A stretch of DNA of 64,000 nt from Diphasiastrum complanatum (taxonomy: Eukaryota > Streptophyta > Lycopodiopsida > Lycopodiales > Lycopodiaceae), in NCBI GenBank assembly GCA_029204225.1, contig CM055107.1, positions 20,021,997-20,085,996 on the forward strand, written 5' to 3'. The notes under the pieces were generated by a model. It did no database searches. It had not been told where the DNA came from and saw only the letters and a program-made list of their open reading frames with translations. Shown here piece after piece: positions 10,455 through 62,150 of this stretch (within the stretch, counting starts at the first letter, position 1; each line of letters starts with the position of its first letter). The translations under genes were made by a program, and so were the position numbers.

Positions 10455-11641
10455 TCAATGGTCCATAGTGGGTGATGACATGAATTGGCTAATCAGACTT
10501 ACAACATAGCAGATATCAGGACGTGTAGTCGTAAGATATATCAAACTCCCAACTAGTTGACGAAATAAAGTAGCGTCAACATGTGCACTATCATCAATAT
10601 GAGATAATTTCTTACCAGCTTCACAAGGGGTGATGGAAGGTATACACTCTGTCATGCGAAATCTCTCTAATATCTCGCGCACATACTTGTTTTGACATAA
10701 CCTAATATCATTGTCAGTTTGCCATACTTTGACACGCAAGCAATAGTGCATAAGATCTAAATTTGTCATCTCAACTTGCTTGCATAAGTTGGCTTTGATA
10801 GAATAGATGAGATTCTCATCATTGCCCGTGATAATGATATCATCAACATAAAGTACAATCAAGGCAATGCTATCTTCATTTATAAGAACATAAAGATTTG
10901 GATTTGAATTTGTTCTTACAAACTCTGAGAAAGAAAGTAATTGTCAATACGTCCATACCATGCGCATGACGCTTGCTTAAGGCCATAAAGTGCTTTGCGT
11001 AGCTTGCATACCTTATGTTCTTGTCTCCTTTTGCCATGAAGCCTTGCGATTGGCCCATGTAAACTTCTTCCTTTAAGTCACCATTCAAAAATGCAGACTT
11101 CACATCCATTTGATCGATCTTCCACCCAAAATGAGATGCTAAGACAATGATAAGGCGCAGCGTAGTCCACTTAGCCACTGGAGCAAATGTCTCTTCATAG
11201 TCATCCTTTATTTTGCTCATAGTCCTTCACTACTAGGCATGCCTTATGCTTTGCTATCATGCCATCTGCATGAAACTTTGTTCTAAACACCCATTTGTTG
11301 TCAATGGATTTCTTTCCAAGTGGTAGATCAACCAACTCCCATGTATCATGCCTGTGGATGGATTCCATCTCTTCTTCCATGGCCCTTTGCCACTCTTTGT
11401 GATCCTTTGCTTCATCAAGGGTTGATGGCTCTCGACACTTCAAAATGTCACTCATTAGGGCATAGTCCACACGATAGCCATCGGGAGACTTCCTTTCCCA
11501 CATTGATCTTCTCACTTCTCCTTGTGTGCTAAATCCTGGTTGAATTAGCTTTGCATCTTTCATGATTTTTTCATACCATTCTGGTATCTTAGACTCAGGT
11601 GATACACTTCGTGGAGAGTATGTGTCCCAAGGAGTGTCCAA
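10455..11641 (-). pseudogene. copia reverse transcriptase
   Basis: The entry region reads DHKEWQRAMEEEMESI, WELVDLPLGKKSIDNKWVF and, after a frameshift near 11210, YEETFAPVAKWTTLRLIIVL with KIDQMDVKSAFLNGDL, the usual catalytic-Asp segment. A second shift near 10870 precedes the active-site YVDDIIITGNDE. The thumb-side motif QLVGSLIYLTTTRPDICY closes the domain. All marks are of the Ty1/copia type; the frameshifts make it inactive. Confidence 0.85.
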
Positions 11642-12262
11642 GTATGTCTCTTACTTCCAACTGGTTTCTCCTTTATTGCTCCTATTGGCAAGTACCTTCC
11701 CCTAGGCTCTTGAATAGGTGGTGTCTTCTCATACTCACCCTCTCGACCTTCGTCTTCGACGTGCATCATCCTATGGAGCATCTTCTTCATCTTCTTCTTC
11801 CAAAATTGTCGGAAGTCTTTTGATGCTTTCATCGCTTGCATGGTCTTCATCTTCATACCTATGTGTCTCATCAAAGATCACATCTTTGCTTATGTGAATC
11901 TTGTTTATTACAGGATCAAAACACCTGTATGCCTTCGTCCTCTCATCATAATCGACAAAGATACACTTGATTGCTTTAGTGTCAAGTTCCTTTCGCTCCT
12001 CCTTTGGCACATGTACATAGGCCCTACTTCCAATGACACGAAACTTGTCGATTTTTGGCTTTATTCCTGTAAATGCTTCTTCGGGAGTCACATTCGGAAC
12101 CGCCACTATAGAGCTCCTGTTTTGCAAGAACGTTGCTGCACTCCACGCTTCCGACCAAAGTGAATCGGTCAAGCCCATTTGCTTCATCATGGAGCGTGCA
12201 CTCTCCATAATAGTCTTGTTTTTCCTTTCAGCTGTGAATTGTCTTTTAATGCTGTGTGGCAT
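11560..12262 (-). pseudogene. copia integrase C-terminal half
   Basis: Begins inside the integrase with the catalytic Glu region (FTAERKNKTIMESARSMM), followed by the LWSEAWSAATFLQNR helix and the GAG/chromodomain-like C-terminal part (FRVIGSRAYVHVPKEERKEL, then KAIKCIFVDYDERTKAYRCF), and an acidic linker of Asp/Glu runs. The two catalytic Asp residues that should precede are absent because the element is truncated. The frame shifts near 11770. Confidence 0.75.
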
Positions 12263-12276
12263 TTCCTCTTACCCAG

Positions 12277-15242: not shown

Positions 15243-18200
15243 TTACCAGGATGACATGCTCACAGCGTTGGCAGTTTCACCGGATTTTTGTGATAAAAAA
15301 TAATTCAGGCCATCAGAGTGTAGTGATGATTCGGCAAGCTTGTGAGCCGGTCCTAAAGGATCCGTTCTGATATCCATAGACGAGACTACTACCTGTTTCA
15401 AATTCTCTTGTACTACTCCATGAGTTTGTCTCGAGCTGGGCGTGCTTGCAACAAGACTTTGAGTCTGCAAACTGCCTGATGGAGCAATGGGACATTGCTT
15501 CTTAGAACTTGAATTGAGCTGATCCGTGAGTACAGCAGTCATCATTTTGGAAGTTTGAAGCAGAGCATAGGAGCAGGATGTTTGATCAGATCCCAGACAA
15601 AGCTTTGTCACTGTACCTGTCTTTTCGTTGTCATGCTGTTCGTTGGCAGAAGTCCTTGCTGATTGGTTTTCTTTGCATACCGCGTCCTGTAATTGCACCG
15701 GTCCACGATCATGCATCAGTGAAGCTTCTACCAGAGCTTGGCCTTGGCTTGAGGTTCTGGGCATTTGACCAGAAGGAGCTTCAGTATGTACATGTGTTGT
15801 ATCTCTGAACGCATATCTGATGCTGTCAACGGAAAGGTTGCCACTAACTAGGAACGTACCTGGTTGGGTAATTTCAGGGAAGTACGTAGATGATGATGAT
15901 AATGATGCTATCGCTGAGGGGGGACTGCGAATAAGCTTTTGTTCATTTTGCGTCAATCCCGTATGTCCACCGTTGGAATTTTCAAGCAAGTTGGTTTTGT
16001 GAGCCCGATTGTCGTAGGAAGTCGCATAAGAAACTTCAGATGGCAGAGCCATGGTTCTGGTAGTTTCGGCACCCTTTTGATGGCAGACTGTCGCAGATGC
16101 TGATATAGAGCTAGAGGGAGAAAAACCATCTTCTATACTATGAAGACCGCTTCCCACGCTGGGCCAAAGAAAGCCATTTGGAAGTTGTTGCACACGGGGT
16201 TTACGATGACATTGTTCTTGGCATATGGGCATGCGCATTGAGGCCTGAGGTGACTGCGGGAGGGTTTCACAATTTTGTGAAGCAGAAGCTTGCCCCGTAT
16301 GGTGCAAATTTGGACTCTGAATATTTCGCAGCTGGTTTTGTAGTAGCATCATTTCTGTTGAACGCAGGCTATGGGGAGCTGCCTTCAAGCATTCAAATCC
16401 AAAATTTTGAGGCTGCCCAAGAGAGGATTTTTCCCAAAGATGCGCTGGAGCTGTATGGAAATCTCCATTTGATTGTGTACATAATATGGGTAAGGATGAC
16501 ACTTTAAGAGGAGTTGCTACGGATTGCTGAGTTTGCAGTTTTTTCATTCCAAGCGTTTCAAGGGCAGTGCAAAATTCTTCCTGGGAAACAATGAGGTTTA
16601 ATAAGGTGACTTTATGGACGGTGCACCTTTCTGGATGCGTTAAGATGCCTCTACAGGAACAGTCTACGTGAGATTTAAAACTTGTTCCTTTGACACGATA
16701 ACTTAAACTTTCTTGGAGCAGACGAGTACTATTTGTATGAGTAAGATAATAGAGTTTAATTACACTCCAATACCCGCCTCAACTGCAAGATATTCTAGGC
16801 TAGAGAAGCAATATTTCATCTCCAGTTATACCTTCATTTTGGCGATGATGTTCCATGAAGTCGATAAGTGACTTTCCAAGGTTCTTTTTTCTGTCACGTA
16901 GTTCTCATACCTTGTCAGATTTTCCTGTAACAAAAGATGTCATCGACCTTTATCTAACTATCACATTCTTATGTCTTGTATCCTAAGTACCTTTGCTCAC
17001 TTCTGTTAATTGGATATATGAAGCTAGTACATTTTCCAGTACACAGCCATAGGAGGAGAGAATCCTACTCTATACAGATAGAACATGATACTATGTGGTA
17101 AATATTCCCCATACAGATTCAACACTCTTCAAAAATGTTGCCAAGAAAGAAATTCCTCATAATCCGAGTTGAAGCCAGAAATTTTTCTAGTGCGCACCTG
17201 AGAGAGCTTCTGTACCTCCATATCAAGGTTATCCAATCTTTTCAATATGGAGTCTAACCTGTGAAGCCAGAAACTTGTACTGTGAGTTTGTTGAGTCAGG
17301 ATGGGAAACTTTGCAACAAAAGCCTCAGAAATAGGACCGAACAAAGCCTATTTTGAATTAACTTGACGACCATTTTATACACTACAAGTTAGTGTAGTCT
17401 TCTAGCTTCTACTAAAGTTACCCTTTGCTGTGAACAAAGTTTTCATCGCCTCCTTTTCTCTGGAGATCATCTCGCGTGCTGCTCTCAGAGAATGTTTCGG
17501 GATTCTGTAAAATCATCAGCTAAAAAGCTTGAAATTGCAGAGCATATTGCAAATGTTAAGTTAAGTTAAAACAACGTTAACAACAAAATGCCGACTCTTA
17601 GACTGCATTAATTTAACACTATCTAATGACCGATAAGTTTTAGATCACAGCCCGTTGGAGAGTCCACCTACTTACTTGCATTTGAAAGGTACGCAAAATC
17701 TTTCCGTGATGTTGTTGCTGCTCTTGCACATGGCCAAGAGTTGACTGAATTTCCAACATTTTGAGCTTGATAATCTTCGTAAGAGCATTCAACAACAATT
17801 AGTAGACGCCCATTTACACAGAGCAAGTTACGAAAGGCTTCTCAATTTGATCGAAATGCTCCAAAACTAGCTTCTTGTGAAAGTACTCCACTCTTTATGA
17901 AAGAGCGTGACTGAAATTGCTGGAGCCAGATAGCCTCATCTAAAGCTGAAGATACCTGAAACTGACCCTTCATATCGTCCTCCAACCATTTGTCAGAACA
18001 GTTTTGATAGCCTAGATTTCTTCCGTCAGTCACCGCTTCCAATGTAGCACGCATATCTGTTTGTGATCCTTGCAATTGCCTTGTGATAGATTGCATCTCA
18101 CTACAGTGTCATAGGGAATATATGGAAAGTAAGAATGAAGAGTACAGCTACATATCATCCTCACCGGAAGTTGCTCCAAAAGCTGAAATCACAATTATCT

Positions 18201-21200
18201 ATGTCCTCAAGGTATCTCGTACGTGGATGAACTTTAAAGGTTAATTGTCTTAGAAAAACCAACCTTGACGAACGAAAGAGGTTGATTATCGACGTACCTT
18301 TTCAGTTTTACAACGTCTTCTTTGAGTTGCTTCATTTCCGCAGCTTCAGAAGGGGACATTCCTTTGGTAAATATACACCCACCTCGTTCTGGTAGTTTAT
18401 CGCCGGGTTTCCAACCTGGAGGAGGAATCCAAGAAGGATCTTCGATTCCTGCCATTCTTCTAATTTCCATAAGACTGGCATCCTCGAGCCAGTACTCCAT
18501 AGCTCCGTCTGCATTATGTCTTCGTCTGAATCGTTCACCGTTGCAAACCACAGTGTCAGTCATGTGTTTAAGTAGATGGTCGAGAAGCCCAGTATCTCCA
18601 ATGTGCTTTCTTGCTTCTTCCCGTAATGCAGGTCTCAGAATAGGATTGCCTGGAGCTGCACCTCTCTGATGCATGATGTCGAGAAGTTTGAGCTGGGCGG
18701 ACTTGTATCTGACACATTATAGAATTACATTAGAATTATTTCTTCAAACTTTGAGACAGAATTGTGGTTGAGATAGAGCATGATGCACAGCAATTAGAAT
18801 CTCTCTGGACACTGAAATCTGACAGCAAACCTCACCTTTCACTTGACCATCTTCCTTGCATATCCTTGGGAAGTTTGAGAATATTGGGCTGGGAGCGCAT
18901 ATCAGATCTTTCACGACCACCATTCACAGTTGATGAGTTTGATGGATTCGGTAGAGAAAAAGCTTTCTGCAAACCTGTGGTCTTGGTTAAACTCATCAAC
19001 TTGCTGCGACTTCTTCCTTGCAAATTTTCTTTACCAATTTTATCCCTTTTTCCGTTTTCTTTGTCGTACTCTTTGATTCCTATGTCACAGCTACCTGCGC
19101 TTTGCCCACGACATCTACCAAACGTGGACACTTTTCTTCGGATTCCCCACTGGAATGGTCCTTCATCCTCTTGTACTTGTATAGCATTCACAGTAGCTCC
19201 AATGCCTCTCTCACTTCGAGTATTCATTGTCTCAGGTATAAGCTGCGTTAACGTCTCCGCAGCAGCTTTTATTCCAGCTCCGAGCTCATCGAAGTTGACG
19301 TCTCGATTTTCTGCGCATTCTAAATTGCCCAGCGAGGACACATCCTCCCAGACTGAATTCTTGCCTTTATTTATTTCAGTTTCAAGGATATTGTTTCCTT
19401 CATTATCATCCTTAAAGAAATCTGTAAATTTTAAGGCTTGTGGATTCTTCTGAATCTTGTTAACGTTCCTACAAGAGCCAACAATTTCACTTTGTGAATT
19501 CGACAGGTCTCTTCCTACAGAGTCCAGCAAATATCTGGTTTTGTCTTCTGTGTTCATAATGTCTACAGTGGTTGGGAAGCTCTTAGCAGACTCTTCGTCT
19601 CTCAATAATTTTTCATCTGTTCGAGAAATCTCCACATCATTTTTTTCACTTACAGCTGTCTGCTGACATGGTGCTTCAGAAACTTGAATGGACATACTTT
19701 GGGCGATTCCATATAACTCGTTTTTCTGATCTGCATTATCTTCAGTGAGTATATCTTTAATAAACCAAAAACTTTTAAGATGCCCTTGATGCAAGTACTC
19801 GGTGCACGAAACTGGACGCATCAGAACCCTCTCCGCAGTCTTGGGGCTCATAACAAAATGCTCATCCATATCAGGTTTTGTTCCCATTATTGTTTCTTGT
19901 TGCAACTCGAAGCAGCTTGTTGCAATGACCTCATTTACAGCGCCTTCTCTGCATTGCTTAAAATACATCCTCAGAGAGAGCGTACTTGGAAATTTGACTG
20001 TGACATGCAACTTTGTAATTTCTGAAACCTGAGAAAATTTTCACGTAAGTGTGGGCATTAGACCTAGAGTATATAAATATAGTTTTGCGCAAGCACACAC
20101 AATACATATATATATATATATATATATGTATGTATCTATATACGTGCTAAAAACAATCAGTCGTATAAATATAAGCCTAGTCAAAAGTGATCTACTATGA
20201 ATGCATATAATATAAATAACGTTTTAGCCCGCGGCGGGCCAGCGCTCCCACAGCCATATATTCAAAGCTTCTCTCTCCCATTTAGAGTTCACGCGTTGAG
20301 GCTTGGCCTCTCAACCTTACGTCACTCATTGTGTGGCTGGGCGTAAAACACAAATCGTGTCTTTAAGTTCCATGATGGTTGCATCACGAGGTCTCCGTCT
20401 TTGAATGCGGATTGTCGAGTTATTTTGACCGCAATGGTTTTAAACTTTGAAACTGCATAGGCTTAGGTAAAGCTTCAGACAAATCAGCTACAATTTCACA
20501 ATTTATTATCAAACTATTAATACACGACGCCCCTAAAAAGCAAAGCAGTTTGTGGTTTATGTACTTGGAAAGTGCTGCCGGCCTAAAAAAGACAAATATT
20601 ATAAAAACGATATCCGTCTTATTCCCAACTAATCTGATAGACCAAAAATTCCACAACGCCGAACCTAGCATTCCGAGCGACCTCACGAATCTACGGGATG
20701 AGAAAAGCCTGAATGCTTAGCCCCTAAAAATAAAAATAAGGAAAATAACAAATTTTACCAGCACTCAGAAGTTCGAACTCTGTTTTTTTCTAGCAAGTGG
20801 AATACGGTCAGATCAACAGCGAAATCTATCTTCCAAATGAAAACAAGTAACATGTAGCTTCATAACATAATATTGAATGAGCTATATCTGGATTCAAGAA
20901 GTGGATGCATATGATGCACGTCTAGGAAAGAAAACAACCAATTACTTTTAATGAAGTTGCACCCAAACCATACTGCGGCATGATGATTCTGTTAGGTGAC
21001 ATGTTTTATTTCCTTTCAATGGCTCATATTCAATTGCAACCACAATGTTCCAGCTGGGACATGTAAAAAATCTAGCGTGGTATGAATATCCTGACAGAAA
21101 AGAGTGTGGAATGCTCGTCATTTTTTAAAATTTCTGACATGATAAGCCTCCTCGCATGTTATATCTGCTGATAGCGGTGAGATTCAACACCTGATTCATG

Positions 21201-24200
21201 CTCCAAGTAACCTTGCAAAATCTACCTCAGAGCAACGTGGAAGTAGAGGTGGGAAAGCTGAAAAAAGGGGGCCGTAGACTGACTAGGACTGGCTAACTGG
21301 GGCTTCAAACGAGAAAACTTAGGATAGGCCGTTCCTGACAGCGATAGGTGTCAACCACTTTTGCTGTCAGAAACTACTCAGTTCCAAAACCATTGGTTTC
21401 TAATTGTGACATTCGAAATTGTTGTATTTCCATAAGAGAGAGAAACAACAGTGGACGATGAAACTTATTCCTGATATTTGTTTGGTGATTGTGTGCCAAA
21501 GTAGAACCTGTACATACACGACTGCTTTTGTAGAGCGACTGTGACTTCATTAGTGACAGCACAGTAGTTAAATTTCGGATGAACATAAAGACAACATACT
21601 TATAATGGCTTATAAGTAGCATAAGAGGATATATTAAAGTCCTTGCCCTGACTGGAGCATAACATGTATTTCGACTCCCAAGTGAACATGGTTTAAACTT
21701 TGGTAATGCTTCGGTAAGGTCAATCTTTTAGCTGTCAAATCTGTACAGCTTCGTATCATGCATACTTTCTGTGATAAATTTCTTATTATAAAATTATGCA
21801 TAGCAATCAATTGCATCGTGGTTAAACGTATTATGGTATCTCCCCTTTCTTAAAGTTGTTCATTGATTAACGTATCTTGATTTAGAAGATGCCTTCAGCA
21901 ACAAACATACGATGAGGTCTTGATTTTGAAAAAGATTCCTAGTCCAAAAACTTAGTGGGCACGAACAATCAAGCAGATCTTTGTTCAGAAAGCAAACCAT
22001 GACGACTCGAAGCGATTTCATTTGTATAGGAACTTTTGGTGGGAGGCTTCGATGATCCATTTCGTAGACTACTCCAGATCTTATACAGCCTGCAAAAAGA
22101 AAGGATAGGCCGGATGTCGCTGATATATCACTTCCCTGGGAGTTTTCCATAAAGAATGAAGAAAAAGACAAATTTTCCAAATCTGAGAGTTATTAGTGAA
22201 TATTGCAGTTGTGATATGGATAAAGGTAGCTGATCACTACAGAAATTCGCCAACCACAACACAAAGTATATTAACCATAACGGGTGACACGAATGCACCT
22301 GTCAGCTGGTAAGTTTGTTTGTTTATTGTAGATTCAGCAGTTGCCGGCAGTATGTTCGCTGCTGATAGTGCAAGCGAAGCAATACTTTCACCTTCAGATA
22401 ACCTTACTGGCCTTTTAGGTAATGTCAAATCCATTGGGCATCTCTTCCGCTTTTTCTGCATCGCCGCATCAAAACCTTGCATCTGGAACGAATGATGGGT
22501 TCTATAATCGAATCCGCTACTCGTTTTCGAAACAATTTGCTGCTTGAACTGTTTTACGTACTTTGACAGCTGCACACAATGTTGTTAGAGACCTAAAAAA
22601 GTCTCGAAGTACTGACGTAATGCTCATTGCTCAATCACAAGGAGACTGAACATTGTTTCAATATCTTAAAGACAATAACAAAATAAGATCATGGGCCATT
22701 ACCAGTTCATATGTATTGACTTCAGACATAGTTTTTCTCCAGGTGATGTAATCGATTGAAGGACTGGATCTTTTTGCAGAAAATGTTTGCAGTCCCTCTT
22801 CTAAATCAAGTAAAGCTTGTACGACATCTCTTACGTTTCGTGCTTCTTTGGTTTTGATGATCCATGCCTGATAAAACTTTGCGTCACTTAAAAGTATCAA
22901 AACTGAGTGCTTTCAAAGTTCAAATCACAAATAACCGCATTGCTGCGGCTTTGTATCATACTTATTCGTTTGTATGTAAAACTCGTCATTGGTCAGCAAA
23001 ACGCTTAGAATTGCACATAAAATTATGTTAAAATCGATGAGAGAATTTTGCTCCGCGAGAATATTTAAATCCTAGCTTTGAGAGGCCCATCGACTAGGAT
23101 TATTTTTCAAATCAGATTTGGAGCAGAAAGTGCGTCCAATGGCATTGATTGATGAGCCATTTACTCACAGATCTGGAAGATCTCCAAGAACAAGATTTTG
23201 CTCCTTCCGAAACGGCTTTCTCAATGTTTATGAGTATCTGCTAAATGCGATAGATCGATCATAACAATACATTAAAGCACGTACACATCATCACAATTGC
23301 TTAAAATTACATAAAAGAAACAATAAAATCAATAACAAGAAACCGAGCATTCATCTAAATTGACGCTGGACAAACATGTAAGGGAATTCACCTTTATCTT
23401 TTCCACGACCATTCAAGAGTAGCCAGATATGTTCAAGATAGTCAAATTTTGTATGCATAAACTGACATGTAAACAAAGTTTACCTCCGCAAACTCCATAG
23501 CCAAAGCATCTGTCCCTAACGATGTTGCACCGTGTTCTCGGTCGTTTAACTCGCCAACATGAAGCTCTACGAGTTTTATCAATGGTTATGCAAACTCAAT
23601 AAACTGAAAGCTCCCAAAAGTTCATCTCAAGTTACATGTGACCTTCATCTTCGTCATGTAGGCCGTAAGCTGGCTTCTAAATGACTTGGAGAAACTTAAG
23701 ACAAGAAAAGAAGCCTTACATCTTCAGAAAAACACGTTTCATGGATGAATTAATTATACCACATTTACCTGAATCTTGTATTGGCGTGAAAGTGCCAGTT
23801 TCTGCAGAGTATCTATATTCGCACAGGTAAAGTCTTTCTAGTGCATCAGCCATCTCACTCCTGAATTCAAAAAACATCATGCTCAAGGCTACAGCTCACT
23901 TCTACCCCAGCAGAGCTTTTATAAGAAATTTTTGCTGGATTATCGTACATTGTGTAACTGCAACTTTTTGTCAGCTTAAATGTTAATAATAACGCTGGCT
24001 GGAGTACGCTTGATTCTAGGTTATAGATCGATGCTCATACTTCAGATGCCGCAGCCTGGTTTCTAAGCTCAGAAACTATCCTGGCACCGACTCAAACAAC
24101 CATTTTAAACTGGAGCACGGCGTACCATCTAGTAGCTTTCAGCGCACGGAAGTGGGTCGTAGTGACAATTTTGCATTTAGCCACAACGGAGTCACTCGGT

Positions 24201-25436
24201 TGGCAATCGATGTAATTTGTAACTGGAACAGCTGTGTCAAGGAGGTCAAACTTGGGCTAGAAAAATGAAAATACTGAAGTACTTACTGATACTGTTCATA
24301 ATCTATAGCCTGGCTGAGCCTCAACTGTTACAACTTTCAGGACAAAAATTTACATGCGGACTATGGATATCTACTTGAAGTTCACGCCAGATATGGAACT
24401 TCCAAACCAAATTGAACGAGAACTTCAAGGTAAAAATTGACAAGCTGGATACGATAAACCTCATCTGATTTAGGGCAGGAAGGCGGTTGGTGACGTAGAT
24501 CTTTTGCACGGTAGAACCTGGTCATTGCATTCAAGTGAACGTAAGTTGCTTCTCAATATGGTTAGAAAGCTCATAATGTTTTTGCAACGACGTTAGCAAT
24601 TGAATCTTGCTGCATAAATTTGAAGACTGTAAATTCCAAGTGTTATGTATCATATCGCACTACGAGGATTGGAATCTGGATCAAGATCGGTTTGCGTCAA
24701 CTGCTAGGAGGATGTTATAAGCTTATGTATCAAATGGCCCCAGAATCTAAGATTGCTCTGACAAGATAACATACGTGTTATACTTCTGATATACCAATAA
24801 TTACTCCAATTATCTCACAGCATAATACTTTCATTCTAACGTTTGGTTGGGTGTCCATTAGAGTGTAAGATAATTCAGTAGAGTCATTGTAGCTGCAAAT
24901 GCGAGGATATGAGTACTCGAACCAGCGAACTTGAAGGAAAGTTTTCCCGAAAGAGTCCTGGCATATGTCTTCGATTCGTGCAATATAAAGATCAGCTTGC
25001 GGAGTTGCTGGAAGTAGCAAAATGTGATTACCTGAAAGCAAGAAAGTTTAAACTTTGAACACCAACAGTCATACGGACTTGATCTGCTTTTAACAACGTC
25101 AACATACAAAGCTCTGTATCAAGAGTAGTTTCAACAACGAACATGATATTACTATATATGTCTTTTATCTTTTCTCATTGAATTTCGACTATAAAGAATA
25201 AGTTTATTCGTGAGAAACTTAAAAATTCTGAGACAACAGAAAAATTGTTTCTGATCATGTTCATAACTTTTAATTTAAACGATTCAACGAAACAGTGATT
25301 ATATTCTGGTGTCCATCATACCAGTTGACAAGAATAGACCGTTGCTTGTTTGAAAGGATGCATACTCTGCGGGACTGTCTTTGTTAACATGAGACGAGCT
25401 GGGCCTATTCGTTAGAATAGCTCCGTCGGCCCTCAT
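15243..25436 (-). CDS. DYAD/SWI1/AMEIOTIC1 family meiotic protein with N-terminal BAH domain
   Basis: Model of CDS exons: 25436-25322, 25031-24923, 24517-24460, 24256-24126, 23860-23769, 23566-23484, 23237-23169, 22867-22703, 22569-22299, 22089-21998, 20028-18836, 18708-18298, (18182-18165 optional), 18100-17956, 17774-17676, 17347-17198, 16924-16832, 16580-15243. Every junction keeps the phase, giving about 1540 residues against roughly 600-800 in flowering-plant relatives. Domains: BAH about 39-165; helical WHIM/DDT-like about 197-300; first DYAD block about 366-480 (VVYEMDHRSLPPKVP, SLRVVMVSEITKLHVTVKFP); DYAD core about 790-930 (HIGDTGLLDHLLKHM, ERFRRRHNADGAMEYWLE, PPPGWKPGDKLPERG); coiled coils about 930-1100; Ser/Gln-rich tail. 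The start ATG is preceded in the same exon by an in-frame TGA. In known plants the family acts in the nucleus of meiocytes, setting the meiotic programme and protecting cohesin from WAPL. Weak points: two non-consensus donors (GTTTGC at 21997, GTTCGA at 24922). Confidence 0.85.
17422..17504 (-). other. optional 83-base exon-like segment in a DYAD intron
   Basis: Flanked by TTTTACAG and by GGGTAACT, open in the frame entering from the preceding exon (NPETFSESSTRDDLQ). Its length is not a multiple of three, so inclusion would shift the frame of everything after it; the model works only when it is skipped. Confidence 0.35.
18298..18708 (-). other. DYAD core exon
   Basis: The most conserved exon of the family. 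With the previous exon it gives GRWSSER plus YKSAQLKLLDIM, then GNPILRPALREEARKHIGDT, GLLDHLLKHM, ERFRRRHNADGAMEYWLE, DPSWIPPPGWKPGD and a Lys/Glu-rich helix starting a coiled coil (EMKQLKEDVVKLKR). No in-frame stop and no altered key residue, which argues the gene is functional. Confidence 0.95.
20029..21997 (-). other. large intron of the DYAD-family gene
   Basis: The longest intron (about 2 kb) separates RVVM from VSEITKLHVTVKFP. It contains an AT microsatellite (20105-20128) and a GC-rich patch near 20228-20250, but no gene on either strand. Confidence 0.6.
20105..20128. repeat. (TA)n microsatellite
   Basis: About eleven units within a DYAD intron. Confidence 0.9.
22703..23237 (-). other. 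WHIM/DDT-like helical segment in exons 7-8
   Basis: Exons 7 and 8 join to ILINIEKAVSEGAKSC... and AWIIKTKEARNVRDVVQALL followed by DLEEGLQ and later TWRKTMSE. The spacing of Trp, the Ala/Val heptads and the LE pair resembles the helical WHIM/DDT-associated motifs of ISWI-partner and MBD9-like proteins. This is a pattern judgement; a profile search is needed before naming the domain. Confidence 0.35.
23769..25031 (-). other. BAH domain encoded by exons 2-5 of the DYAD-family gene
   Basis: Joined in phase, exons 2 to 5 give the order of a bromo-adjacent homology domain: GNHILLLPATPQ (entry strand), LYIARIEDICQDSFGKTFLQ, VRWFYRAKDLRHQPP (the RWFYRPED-type core), DSVVAKCKIVTTTHF (the GKC-type strand) and LYLCEYRYSAETGTFTP (the closing FFCRYEYD..TG.F.P motif). 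BAH domains bind nucleosomes or modified histone tails in ORC1, CMT3, SHL and EBS. The domain is split by three introns of 100-400 bases and ends directly before exons that lead into DYAD. Confidence 0.8.
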
Positions 25437-27682: not shown

Positions 27683-29083
27683 TTATGATTGTTGTGGCCT
27701 AGATTCAATTTTTTCTTCTTTAAAAGCACATGCATGGTTGTTTCTTATGTTCTTTGTTACAACTCTCTCTAACAAAAGGGCATCTGCATCTTGTTCATCT
27801 GTCACTGGTGGCAAATCATAGTACTGTCTTTCCAAAACTTCATAGCCGACATGATCATCATTGGACATAGTCCTACTCTCCTCAAATCTGACATCTCTCA
27901 CTGTTTTCACAGTGTTCGTGTCTGGCACGTAGACTATGTAGTATGACAAATTGTTGTCATAACCTACCAAAAATCCCTATTCAGCATTCTCATCAAGCTT
28001 CTTTCGAAGCTTATCAAGAATATGTAAGTTGCACAACCAAAGATTCTGATGTGAGACAGGTTGGGCTTTTTACCCCACCATAATTTATGTGGTGTCGTGT
28101 GAGGGACACCAGACTTACCTGTCCTGTTCTGGATGTATGCAGTTGTAGCTACTGCTTCAGCCCATAGTACCCTTGGAGACTTTGAGTAGGCCATCATGCA
28201 TCTGGCAGCTTCCATCAGGGTCCTATTCTTCCTCTCTGCAACACCGTTGTGCTGCGGTGTGTAGGCTACAATCCTTCTGTGAATGATACCATGATCATTG
28301 CAGAAGTCAGTGAAGTGATTTGAGATGTATTATTCGCCACCTCGATCTGTCCTGATCTGCTTCAATTTGTTGCCTGTGCATCTCTCTGCCTAATTCACAT
28401 ATTCTGTGACTTTATCAAGTGCTTCAGATTTATTCTGAATAAAGTACACTCTGGCAAATTTACTATAATCATCAATGAAGGTTATGTAATATTTCGAGCC
28501 TCCTATTGAGATCACATTGAAAGGCCCACATATGTCAAAATGCACTAACTCCAGAATCTTGGTCGTTTTGTAGGAGTCTTTAACAAATGGAGTGCGTGAC
28601 ATCTTACCCTTCAGACATGCATCACAGATGGTTGCACTGGTTGCATTCGAGATGCTGACCCACCCCTGTTACTGCTCCATGATGGCTTGCTTGGTAAATT
28701 GCCATTGAGTTCATGTGGCATAGTCGTATATGCCACAGAGTGTCTGGCGAATCATCATGAGTCTGATGCACTTGATCTGCAGACAGGCGTACCTTCAAGT
28801 GATATAGATTACCTTTCCTTCTGCCTTGAGTGACCAGGGTACTGGTACTGGCATCAATAACGTTGCATGCTTCGTCAGAAAACATCACACGCATCCCTGC
28901 ATAAGCTATCCTTGCCACAGAAAGCAGGTCCTGCTGCAGTGTAGGCACGAACAAAATGTCTTGGAGCCGTCTGTCTCTGCCATTCGTGTTGAGCCATAGT
29001 GAACCAAAACCGTTCACTTGATGTTTGGATCCATCTCCAAGAACAATGAATCTTGAAGGATCTACACTTCTAAAATCAGACAT
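27683..29083 (-). pseudogene. copia protease-side, GAG-pre-integrase and integrase fragments
   Basis: The frame at 29083-28622 has FRSVDPSRFIVLGDGSKHQV and DTLWHIRLCHMNSMAIYQAS (GAG-pre-integrase). The frame at 28602-28390 gives LVHFDICGPF and YYITFIDDYSKFARVYF, the two catalytic Asp segments. The frame at 28215-27964 continues after the Glu region (MEAARCMMAYSKSPRVLWAE) into KLWWGKKPNLSHIRIFGCAT, and 27970-27683 gives VGYDNNLSYYIVYVPDTNTV. Several frameshifts and stops separate these, and the DSGA-type protease site itself is lost, so the copy is inactive. Confidence 0.8.
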
Positions 29084-29447
29084 AATTCATCTTGATGTCA
29101 CGAAGTGTGAGGTGGCTCCTGAATCTAGGATCACCTCATGTGTGTCAGATGTTGACGCTGCACACACATCTTTTCAAATGTAGGCGGTCAAACAATTTCT
29201 GTTCGATCTCTCTTCGGCCATTTTCGAACTCTCAGGCTCCTCGACATAGGATGAACTATTGTTGTTCTCCTGTCTGTTCTATGCTGATTTATTCCTCGGG
29301 TTCAGGCGACAATCCATGGCTGCATGACCCTTCTTATGGCAGCAAATACATTCAATTTTTGGATTGAGCCAGCATGAATACTTGGCCTCCTAGATCTGAT
29401 AGCTTCTTGGCTACGTCAGACTATGACAAGGTAGGCTCTGATACCAC

Positions 29448-45483: not shown

Positions 45484-47329
45484 TCCAGCAAAGCCAATTG
45501 GGGGACACTCCACAGTGGATACAAAGTGGACGGTATGTCTATTTTTTGTTATTTGATTATAAGGGCTTTGTTTTGTGTTTTCTGAAATTTGTAGATTAAT
45601 GCTATTAAGTATGTAATGTATGTTATTTTACTATGTAAATTAATCCTTTTGTCTAATGTCTTGTGTAGGAATTTATTTTTACGGTCAAAGTAATAGTGGA
45701 AAAAATGATCATTAAGCATGATATGCATATGATCTTTTGTGAAAGATCTTTGTTCGATAGATGGATTACAATCATGGACAACTATGTTGCTGGACAACTG
45801 GCAGGCATTACTGGAAATTTCTGTTTGTTGCGTTTTAAAAAAGACGGTGACAAAATACAAGCCGACGGAACCACACCTCTCAGTGCTAGTTTGTTTCGTT
45901 GTATTCAAGGTTTGATGGAAGCTGAAATATACAAGATACAAGATCAAATCCTTCGAGGTAAAATTCTTTTGAAGAGAATAAAAACTCTAAAAGACCACGA
46001 GGACATGGAGGATGTTGCTCTCAAGTACAAATATAACTGGGTTTTGAAAAGTGCCATATGTGACCATTTGGGAAATCTTTCGGGCAATCAGAACTTAGTG
46101 TATGACGAAGTAGAGAGAAAGTATGGAATACAAGAAGGTACATACAAAAAAATGTACAATTGTAGTGCTGAGTGGATGAAAAACGCTATCAACAAAACAA
46201 AAAAGAAAGCAGAATTGCCAAAAACTATGCAAACAGACTTCCGATTGGCCTATTCTAGGGTGTTGGAATACAACAATGCACTCTTGAAAAACCATGGAAA
46301 ATATGTAATGCTGGACCTATGCTATCATGTTTTACAGAAGTGGTTGCAGCTTGTGGCAACGGCAACGACATCGGCTTGGTTATCTTAGATACAACCTCAC
46401 AAGGAAAAGATGTCGAATGGACAACAGAGTCATTTAAAAGGTTGGTTGATTGTATTGTGAATATCCACTCAGGTGATTCATATGTTCTTATTGTGTTTGT
46501 TCCATATGGTCCTTCGTTGTATCACCTAGAAAACACCTTGAAACACATAGTAGGTTTATTTTCTATACAATATGGATCATATACCAAGGGAAACATGCAT
46601 ACCAAAAAGTATATTCTCAGTCATGATCTTTGTATAGTTATGGCATACATATCCAAGACAGAAGAAAAGAAAGATTGGAAAGGTTTAATAGATATTGGTG
46701 GCAATCAAATGTCATCCATTATCTACTAGGAAGTTGAAGATGATGCTGATGAAGACACTATGGCCGATGCGGAGTTGTTGGAAGAAAAATCAAAAGCTAC
46801 AATTTTTGATAAGCCAATTCTTTATGAACAATGCCACCTTGTTGGAGGAGGAATAAGCAAATATCCTAAGGATCATCAACTGTATGTCAATATAATCTCT
46901 TCGTTTTGTCCCAAAGGAAAAGTGGTAATTGATGTTTATACTGGAGGATATGGTATGAGAGAAGCATTACGAAATGAAAGAAATACAATCACCTTTGTAA
47001 ATAGCTCATGTGAAAAAGATTTTCTTCAGGGCTATTGTTCTATGATGGTTGATGTTCTTTCAAAAGTCAAAATTTTTTATAGAAGCGCAAGTTTGCACAA
47101 GGACCTCAATAAGGATAATGTCACAATAGATGATGCACAGGAAAAACTTTTTGAAGACTTTTTGAAATCATTGGATCAAGCATCACAAGATCTCCAAGTT
47201 TACGATATCCAAAAAGATACTTTGTATGAAGATCCAAATATCAATGCTAGTAGAGAATTTTCTATGGGGGCCAATATACCTATGGGCATTTCACAACAAT
47301 CACTACAAGAAGAACATGTAGATACATAG
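45484..47329 (+). pseudogene. DNA N4/N6-methyltransferase-like protein with altered catalytic motif
   Basis: A possible first exon (GCPAKPIGGHSTVDTKWT) ends at the GT at 45533 and joins in phase to the exon from 45670. The frame at 45696-46388 gives about 200 residues without a known domain, then shifts to the frame at 46319-46729: IGLVILDTTSQGKDVEWTTE, followed by SYVLIVFVPYGPSLYHLE, resembles motif IV and the next strand of amino-methyltransferases (usual DPPY reads DTTS). After a TAG at 46727-46729 the same frame continues: LYEQCHLVGGGISKYPKDHQ, then GKVVIDVYTGGYGMREAL, like motif X and the SAM-binding motif I (D-x-F-x-G-x-G). This IV-then-I order is that of beta-type enzymes. The DTTS change would remove activity; the stop and the frameshift suggest decay. 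Confidence 0.5.
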
Positions 47330-48604: not shown

Positions 48605-49030
48605 TTCCACTATCGAAGTCACCAACTTGTGTGTGCGCAAACATTGCCAACTATTTCAAATTTGATATCTTATTCATATGAGCTTCACAAATGATTTGTG
48701 TTTTGTGCAATGTACAATATTATAGTTTTCAAATAAAATTTCCAATTTTTACATGCAAAGTGTTGTGGATATGTTCTTTTAATAGATGAGTTAAATCTAT
48801 GTTATTTCAAGGATTTACACAATCAATCCTCCATGAAAAAAACTTCTATCAATTACGTTATTTGTTATTTAGAGATAAGAATTTTGTATTATTATTTTCA
48901 TTAAACTTGAATTATCCTAAGGAAAGACAATGGAAAACCATTTGAGAAAAGGAAATCACAAGGAGGAACTATCATCTCTTACATTTGTTTCATTGTTCTA
49001 AAGTTTACATGATGAACTACAAGTGTTCAG

Positions 49031-50755
<1,725 letters not shown>

Positions 50756-61030: not shown

Positions 61031-61373
61031 TAAAAATTAGACATCTAGAGATTCACAAAGATCCCTACCATGCATTAATACTCAAATATGGACTTATTGC
61101 GTTCAAAATAATGTCAGTGTGTATGTATGCTACTCTGCCTTATCATTCTCTTTGATGCTGATTTCTTATAGATTTGTCTGAACTATTTGTCGCTCTACAA
61201 TTAACAGTCATTAGTCTTTGTGTTTGTCTAAGTAATCGACCCTATCAAGAAGTCAAATCCAAGTAGAATCAGCTGAGTCATTCAACTTGACACTCTGAAT
61301 GAACTATTACAACCTAGCAACGTGGATTTATCAAAGGTTGTCCTTCTAGCAATAGTTGTAGTTTAGTTGAGGG

Positions 61374-61506
<133 letters not shown>

Positions 61507-61509
61507 GAG

Positions 61510-62150
61510 GGCACGTGGTCGGAGGGGAAGGTAAGGAGAGGATGGAGGAAAAAATGCTAGGGAAATAGAAGTAGGAGGGGCACGCAAAGAAAGGGGAGAA
61601 AGCTTTGTTATCTTGCATGGAAAGGAGCAGGGATATAAGCGAAGGGCGAGGATAGGAGGAAAGTATTGCAAAAATTTGGGTTTTTTCAAAAAGAAAATGT
61701 TCGCTTGTGTGGGTGTAGCCCAATGCATGCAAGGATTTGTTTTTTTTTTAAAAAGGTTGAAAATTAAGAAATAATAAATAGATTTCTTTTCAAAAAACAT
61801 TAGAAATCACCTGGTGGGTACCGCCACTCAAGTGCCATATGGGTCAGCTAAGACAATGAAATTATGTAAAGAAATAAAAAAAAATCCACGCAAATTTAGA
61901 TCTAAAAATTTCAAAAAAGTTTAAACTAAATCATAATCATTTATTTCACGTGAATTAGGCATGTGAGACCTAGCAAGGTGTATCTTAAGGCTCACTTTCA
62001 TAAAGGAGGAAGAGGAGATGGAGCTCCAAGTTCTCTCAATTTGAAAATGCGCCAAAAGATCCTTCAAAATGATGTTTCTTGCCTACTTATAGACAAATTC
62101 CATGTCTATTGGAAAGTTCCACTTCAATACTATTGTCTTCTTCTATCTCT
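61510..62150. other. non-coding region
   Basis: Purine-rich, then AT-rich. The minus-strand frames here exist only because of the repeat. No gene supported. Confidence 0.5.

Follow-up and report, generated by a model that had tools for sequence, protein, structure and literature searches.

In Arabidopsis, the meiotic protein SWI1 (also DYAD) has been shown to bind PDS5 and to antagonise WAPL, thereby keeping cohesin in place during meiosis (PMC6465247). The same report assigns PDS5 binding to the first 300 residues of the protein, a region described as having three conserved domains and no clear motif, and documents residual SWI1 on the chromatin of rec8 mutants, from which its authors infer that other factors are involved (PMC6465247). 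For the family member OsAM1, a coiled coil has been stated (PMC4578934). Histone contact has been described in other plant proteins: in H3K27me3-reading BAH domains, a Tyr-Trp-Tyr cage is accompanied by one His and one Asp residue (PMC7718874, PMC6013494), and land-plant SCC2 carries a histone-binding PHD finger that meiosis requires (PMC7304647). Outside plants, the face of the nucleosome is bound by the BAH domain of yeast Orc1, a domain that also plays a part in meiotic prophase (PMC6602975).

The gene described here comes from a clubmoss and, judged from its sequence, is a land-plant gene of the DYAD/SWI1/AM1 type; its predicted product begins with an N-terminal BAH domain, continues through a linker, and ends with the DYAD regions. 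No report of a BAH domain in a DYAD, AM1 or SWI1 protein was found among the papers listed by the literature searches, a result that is not proof of such a domain being unpublished.

The gene and its exons

The window, meaning the whole stretch of DNA analyzed, comprises 64,000 nucleotides (C16:20021997-20085996), and genome-wide searches covered the 1.74 Gb assembly of 5176 contigs to which it belongs. A gene of 17 exons was rebuilt on the minus strand, running from an ATG at 25436 to a stop codon ending at 15243 and encoding a product of 1548 residues; these outer bounds are the same as those in the preliminary description of the locus. All 16 introns are of the GT-AG type, phases agree at every junction, and the frame remains open through to the stop. 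Included here are the three phases on which the preliminary description had laid most weight (22299/22089, phase 1; 21998/20028, phase 0; 18836/18708, phase 2), each of which was recovered unchanged. Upstream of the start codon, an in-frame stop is found at a distance of 14 codons with no ATG in between.

Splice sites were scored with hand-set weights and ranked among the sites of the same strand. By this measure many sites of the gene fall within the top few per cent, including the donor of exon 1 (25322-25436, with the start codon at 25436), which is in the top 2.0%. Weak donors are those of exon 2 (top 31%) and of exons 6 and 9 (top 15-16%), and weak acceptors those of exons 5, 6, 12, and 13 (top 23-44%). 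In all eight upstream exons (exons 1-8), the model frame has a higher codon score than the other two sense frames, with an antisense frame outscoring it in exons 3 and 6; among exons 9-17, another sense frame scores better in exons 9, 13, and 14. The codon scores of exons 1-8 sum to +34.8 bits, which is only about two standard deviations above random open frames (mean -15.6, sd 24.7, maximum 76.0), and codon support is therefore modest.

Other features of the window include remnants of LTR retrotransposons on the minus strand at 10455-12268 and 27964-29086, in which RVT_2, SH3_retrovirus, and Pol_BBD lie on broken frames, the matches at 27964-28329 being below their cut-offs. Two long open frames of 239 and 199 aa at 45669-47329 (plus strand) have no Pfam match at E 0.01, and long CT-type simple repeats at 48946-49356 (plus strand) and 61346-61806 (minus strand) read as runs of Ser and Leu.

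The DYAD/SWI1 portion

The query for comparison was a working version of the Arabidopsis SWI1 sequence, not a database entry, the features of which were checked against PMC6465247. This working sequence contains 639 residues, with RxxL at positions 306 and 559 and five RxxL motifs from residue 300 onward, and its length and RxxL sites agree with the real protein as presented in that paper (PMC6465247). Two stretches of the clubmoss product align with it: residues 380-496, encoded by exons 9-10, at 33% identity (E 5e-14), and residues 801-1009, spanning exon 10 to exon 13, at 41% identity (E 2e-46). Both the conserved N-terminal region of DYAD/SWI1/AM1 proteins (IRxGxxYExD ... RVVMVS) and the core in exon 11 were therefore found against the working sequence. 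The first stretch starts at SWI1 residue 35, two codons into exon 9 (21998-22089), and because the match starts at this exon, residues 1-378 of the product can be regarded as an added N-terminal module.

Exon 10 (18836-20028) encodes the N-terminal DYAD region followed by a less conserved stretch, and exon 11 (18298-18708) encodes the core, within the 41% stretch. Open frame and phases define exons 12 (17956-18100), 13 (17676-17774), 14 (17422-17504), 15 (17198-17258), and 16 (16832-16924), and exon 17 (15243-16580) is the last of the gene model and carries the stop codon. The profile search for the DYAD family that had been suggested earlier came back empty, as no matching model for this part was found in Pfam or NCBIfam. 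The fold predicted for exon 11 alone is poor (pLDDT 54.3, pTM 0.33), and a peptide string from the core was found in none of the papers searched. A Pfam scan of the working SWI1 sequence at E up to 10 returned no BAH domain and two weak, unrelated matches, which for this one sequence agrees with the earlier statement that flowering-plant members lack a BAH domain.

A divergent BAH domain at the N-terminus

On the basis of profile matches, exons 2 (24829-25031, first half of the domain, with an uncertain 3' end), 3 (24126-24256, its middle), and 4 (23769-23860, its end) are identified as encoding a divergent BAH domain. Comparison of the joined protein with the Pfam BAH profile (PF01426), proposed in the preliminary description, succeeded in extent and fell short in score: the match is nearly full-length, covering residues 37-177 and profile positions 4-120 of 121, but amounts to 26.4 bits with a query of 942 residues, 27.1 bits with 378 residues, and 29.2 bits with the domain alone (E about 1e-6), so that none of the three queries reaches the curated cut-off of 30.8. 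A genome-wide six-frame search with the same profile returned 18 matches, and the locus of exons 2-4 was not among them, as can happen when one domain is divided among three exons.

A second profile was built in-house from 11 other BAH domains of the same genome. With it the domain scores 24.8 bits, whereas the top score among 2000 shuffles (1646 scored) is 11.8, and hhalign aligns the two with a probability of 95.8%. Since the exons had been picked with a BAH domain in mind, the in-house profile was also run on every stop-to-stop fragment of the window (2078 in total); exon 2 has the highest score (15.4 bits), exon 4 comes second (5.1 bits), and exon 3 seventh (3.9 bits). Exons 2, 3, and 4 cover profile segments 13-62, 62-88, and 94-110, that is, in gene order and on one strand. 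Taken singly, exons 3 and 4 would be at chance level; it is the shared order and strand that carry weight, and the collinear match along the whole length of the profile goes beyond chance. The earlier observation that BAH exons precede the DYAD exons on the same strand is thereby borne out.

The best pairwise matches of the domain are those of the genome's own BAH domains that we label EBS-like, and relative to the other BAH domains of the genome it has an insert of about 24 residues. Among solved chains compared by sequence, none reaches E 0.001; polybromo, SHORT LIFE (SHL), and EBS lead at E 0.012-0.051, and the next is an unrelated kinase at E 0.24. Exons 2 and 3 can be joined in frame in 16 ways, and for the 10 of the 16 listed the BAH score is 24.4-26.7 bits. 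As many joins keep the score, the loop sequence modelled at this junction is provisional.

The remainder of the N-terminal module is encoded by exon 5 (23484-23566) and exon 6 (23169-23240), both with weak acceptors, exon 7 (22703-22867), and exon 8 (22299-22569), which closes it; exons 5, 6, and 7 were placed by phase and open frame. Together, exons 5-8 (22299-23566, minus strand) encode a linker module with AWIIKTKEARNVRDVVQALLDLEEGL. This linker has no Pfam match with E up to 10, occurs nowhere else in the genome, and is possibly an undescribed plant domain.

Of the five residues that mark H3K27me3 readers, alignment to solved chains indicates that Y54, W75, and D123 are kept, and that E77 and Y121 sit where the readers carry Tyr and His, respectively (PMC6013494, PMC7718874). 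With two of the five differing, the domain lacks the full residue set of the H3K27me3-reading BAH subfamily and specificity for H3K27me3 is not predicted; the residues give no support to a role as H3K27me3 reader. Likelier targets would be unmodified tails, the nucleosome surface, or a histone state other than H3K27me3. The same substitutions, together with the score below the Pfam cut-off and the insert, would suit a gene that is fused as described and whose BAH domain is degenerate, serving a structural purpose only and binding no histone. Against such degeneration stand the three residues that are kept and the example of the second BAH domain of PBRM1, which still binds histones with an atypical cage (PMC10425938), and we consider it a real possibility, though a somewhat doubtful one.

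Copies and relatives

When the 340 residues encoded by exons 2-8 were searched against the genome, seven matches were returned with E up to 1 (20 candidates scored), all of which are these seven exons themselves; the module was thus found at this locus only. The exon 11 core has 17 matches in the genome, one of them being the gene studied. Eight of the other places were examined, with those on C4065 excluded: L017 (C13), L020 (C1), L022 (C20), L025 and L027 (C4), L028 and L029 (C5), and L030 (C1339). According to tblastn and blastn, these are copies of parts of 17955-20909, an interval holding exons 10-12 together with some of intron 9. Stops interrupt the matched pieces in seven of the eight places, the piece at the eighth (L027) is a fragment only 26-30 residues long, and intron 10 is retained in several copies. 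These sequences indicate that a piece of the DYAD gene has been copied repeatedly in this genome and that the gene studied is the sole intact gene of the DYAD/SWI1/AM1 type found in it, the copies on C4065 lying outside the comparison.

In 15 stretches that cover the eight places and 6 to 25 kb of their upstream sequence, no exon of the module was found at E under 0.05; a match of L023 to exon 4 (32% over 25 residues, E 0.075) was taken as chance. Because the copies are partial, they are uninformative about the junction between exons 8 and 9, and their use as a test of it was rejected for all eight. As to arrangement, C20 contains four partial copies in tandem at about 2.14 kb, and the three core matches on C4065 (L013-L015) have the same spacing. 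No relatives were found in the viral and genome contig collections searched, which include no plant collection.

One gene or two

The decisive junction is intron 8 (22090-22298), whose 209 bases accord with the length of about 210 given earlier for the intron before the first DYAD exon. The exon 9 acceptor ranks second among the 4160 AG sites on the strand, and the join of exon 8 to exon 9 is the highest-scoring of 66 in-frame joins at 10.6, with a donor at 22392 nearly equal at 10.5. Reading onward from exon 8 leads to a stop at 22237; ahead of exon 9 the only ATG in frame lies at 22150, from which the frame is open into exon 9, and 86 bases separate that stop from this ATG. The fusion is favored by the continuous phases, the rank of the exon 9 acceptor, the 86-base gap, and the restriction of the module to a single locus. 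On these grounds the sequence itself supports the fusion of BAH and DYAD parts put forward in the preliminary description: we place the probability of one fused BAH-DYAD gene at roughly 0.8, and the two halves very probably lie in one transcript.

One gene might also give rise to two products, a long BAH-DYAD protein and a short DYAD protein, through an internal promoter near the ATG at 22150 or through other exon 8 donors; the presence of that in-frame ATG and the near-equal score of the donor at 22392 are consistent with such a scheme, which we nonetheless judge unlikely. Two neighboring genes, a BAH gene ending at the stop at 22237 and a DYAD gene beginning at the ATG at 22150 and unspliced at exon 9, would fit the stop met on reading through exon 8, the frame open from an ATG at which a DYAD protein could start shortly upstream of exon 9, and a SWI1 homology whose start exactly at exon 9 also suits a gene boundary there, but this arrangement is highly improbable and was rejected as the main reading, as it would have to accommodate gene end, promoter, and leader in just 86 bases, leaves so highly ranked an acceptor unexplained, and runs counter to the agreement of phases across exons 8 and 9, the top place of their join, and the lack of any further copy of the N-terminal module in the genome.

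Predicted function and origin

For the fused BAH-DYAD gene, homology suggests that the DYAD part probably works like Arabidopsis SWI1, binding PDS5 and opposing WAPL in early meiosis. The BAH domain, in turn, would add a contact to nucleosomes or histone tails, giving the protein a second means of staying on chromatin in addition to cohesin; for such tethering we see a chance slightly short of even. The domain could supply a cohesin-independent contact like that of the residual SWI1 in rec8 mutants (PMC6465247). How SWI1/AM1 proteins reach chromosomes is only partly explained, and a natural version bearing a BAH domain names a second anchor that can be tested. Tentatively, DYAD might have begun as a chromatin reader. 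In that case, a BAH-DYAD protein of early land plants would have linked cohesin protection and entry into meiosis to the state of chromatin, and the line leading to flowering plants would then have lost the BAH domain and kept recruitment through cohesin and PDS5.

Comparison with known systems

Among described proteins, Arabidopsis SWI1/DYAD (639 aa), alongside which the AM1 proteins of maize and rice are named, resembles the clubmoss protein in the parts encoded by exons 9-10 (33%) and exons 10-13 (41%), as judged from the working SWI1 sequence. The two differ in what comes before: in that sequence, which has no BAH match, 34 residues precede the homology, whereas in the clubmoss protein there are 378 residues that include one. 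With the plant BAH-PHD readers EBS and SHL, the clubmoss protein shares the BAH fold as judged by sequence, and EBS-like domains are its best pairwise matches; unlike them, it has no match to a PHD finger, lacks the cage Tyr and the specificity His, and has a 24-residue insert. The BAH domain of PBRM1 (polybromo) is, jointly with SHL, the top-scoring solved chain (E 0.012), and, like the clubmoss domain, has a Tyr at the position of the His; PBRM1 itself is a subunit of a remodeller, and its similarity to the clubmoss domain is only weak. Land-plant SCC2 likewise regulates meiotic cohesin and has a histone-binding domain of its own (PMC7304647), but it is a cohesin loader with a PHD finger rather than a BAH domain, and the likeness is offered as an analogy, with no homology claimed. 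Alongside the PHD finger of SCC2, the clubmoss BAH domain would be a second histone-contacting domain within a plant meiotic cohesin regulator (PMC7304647).
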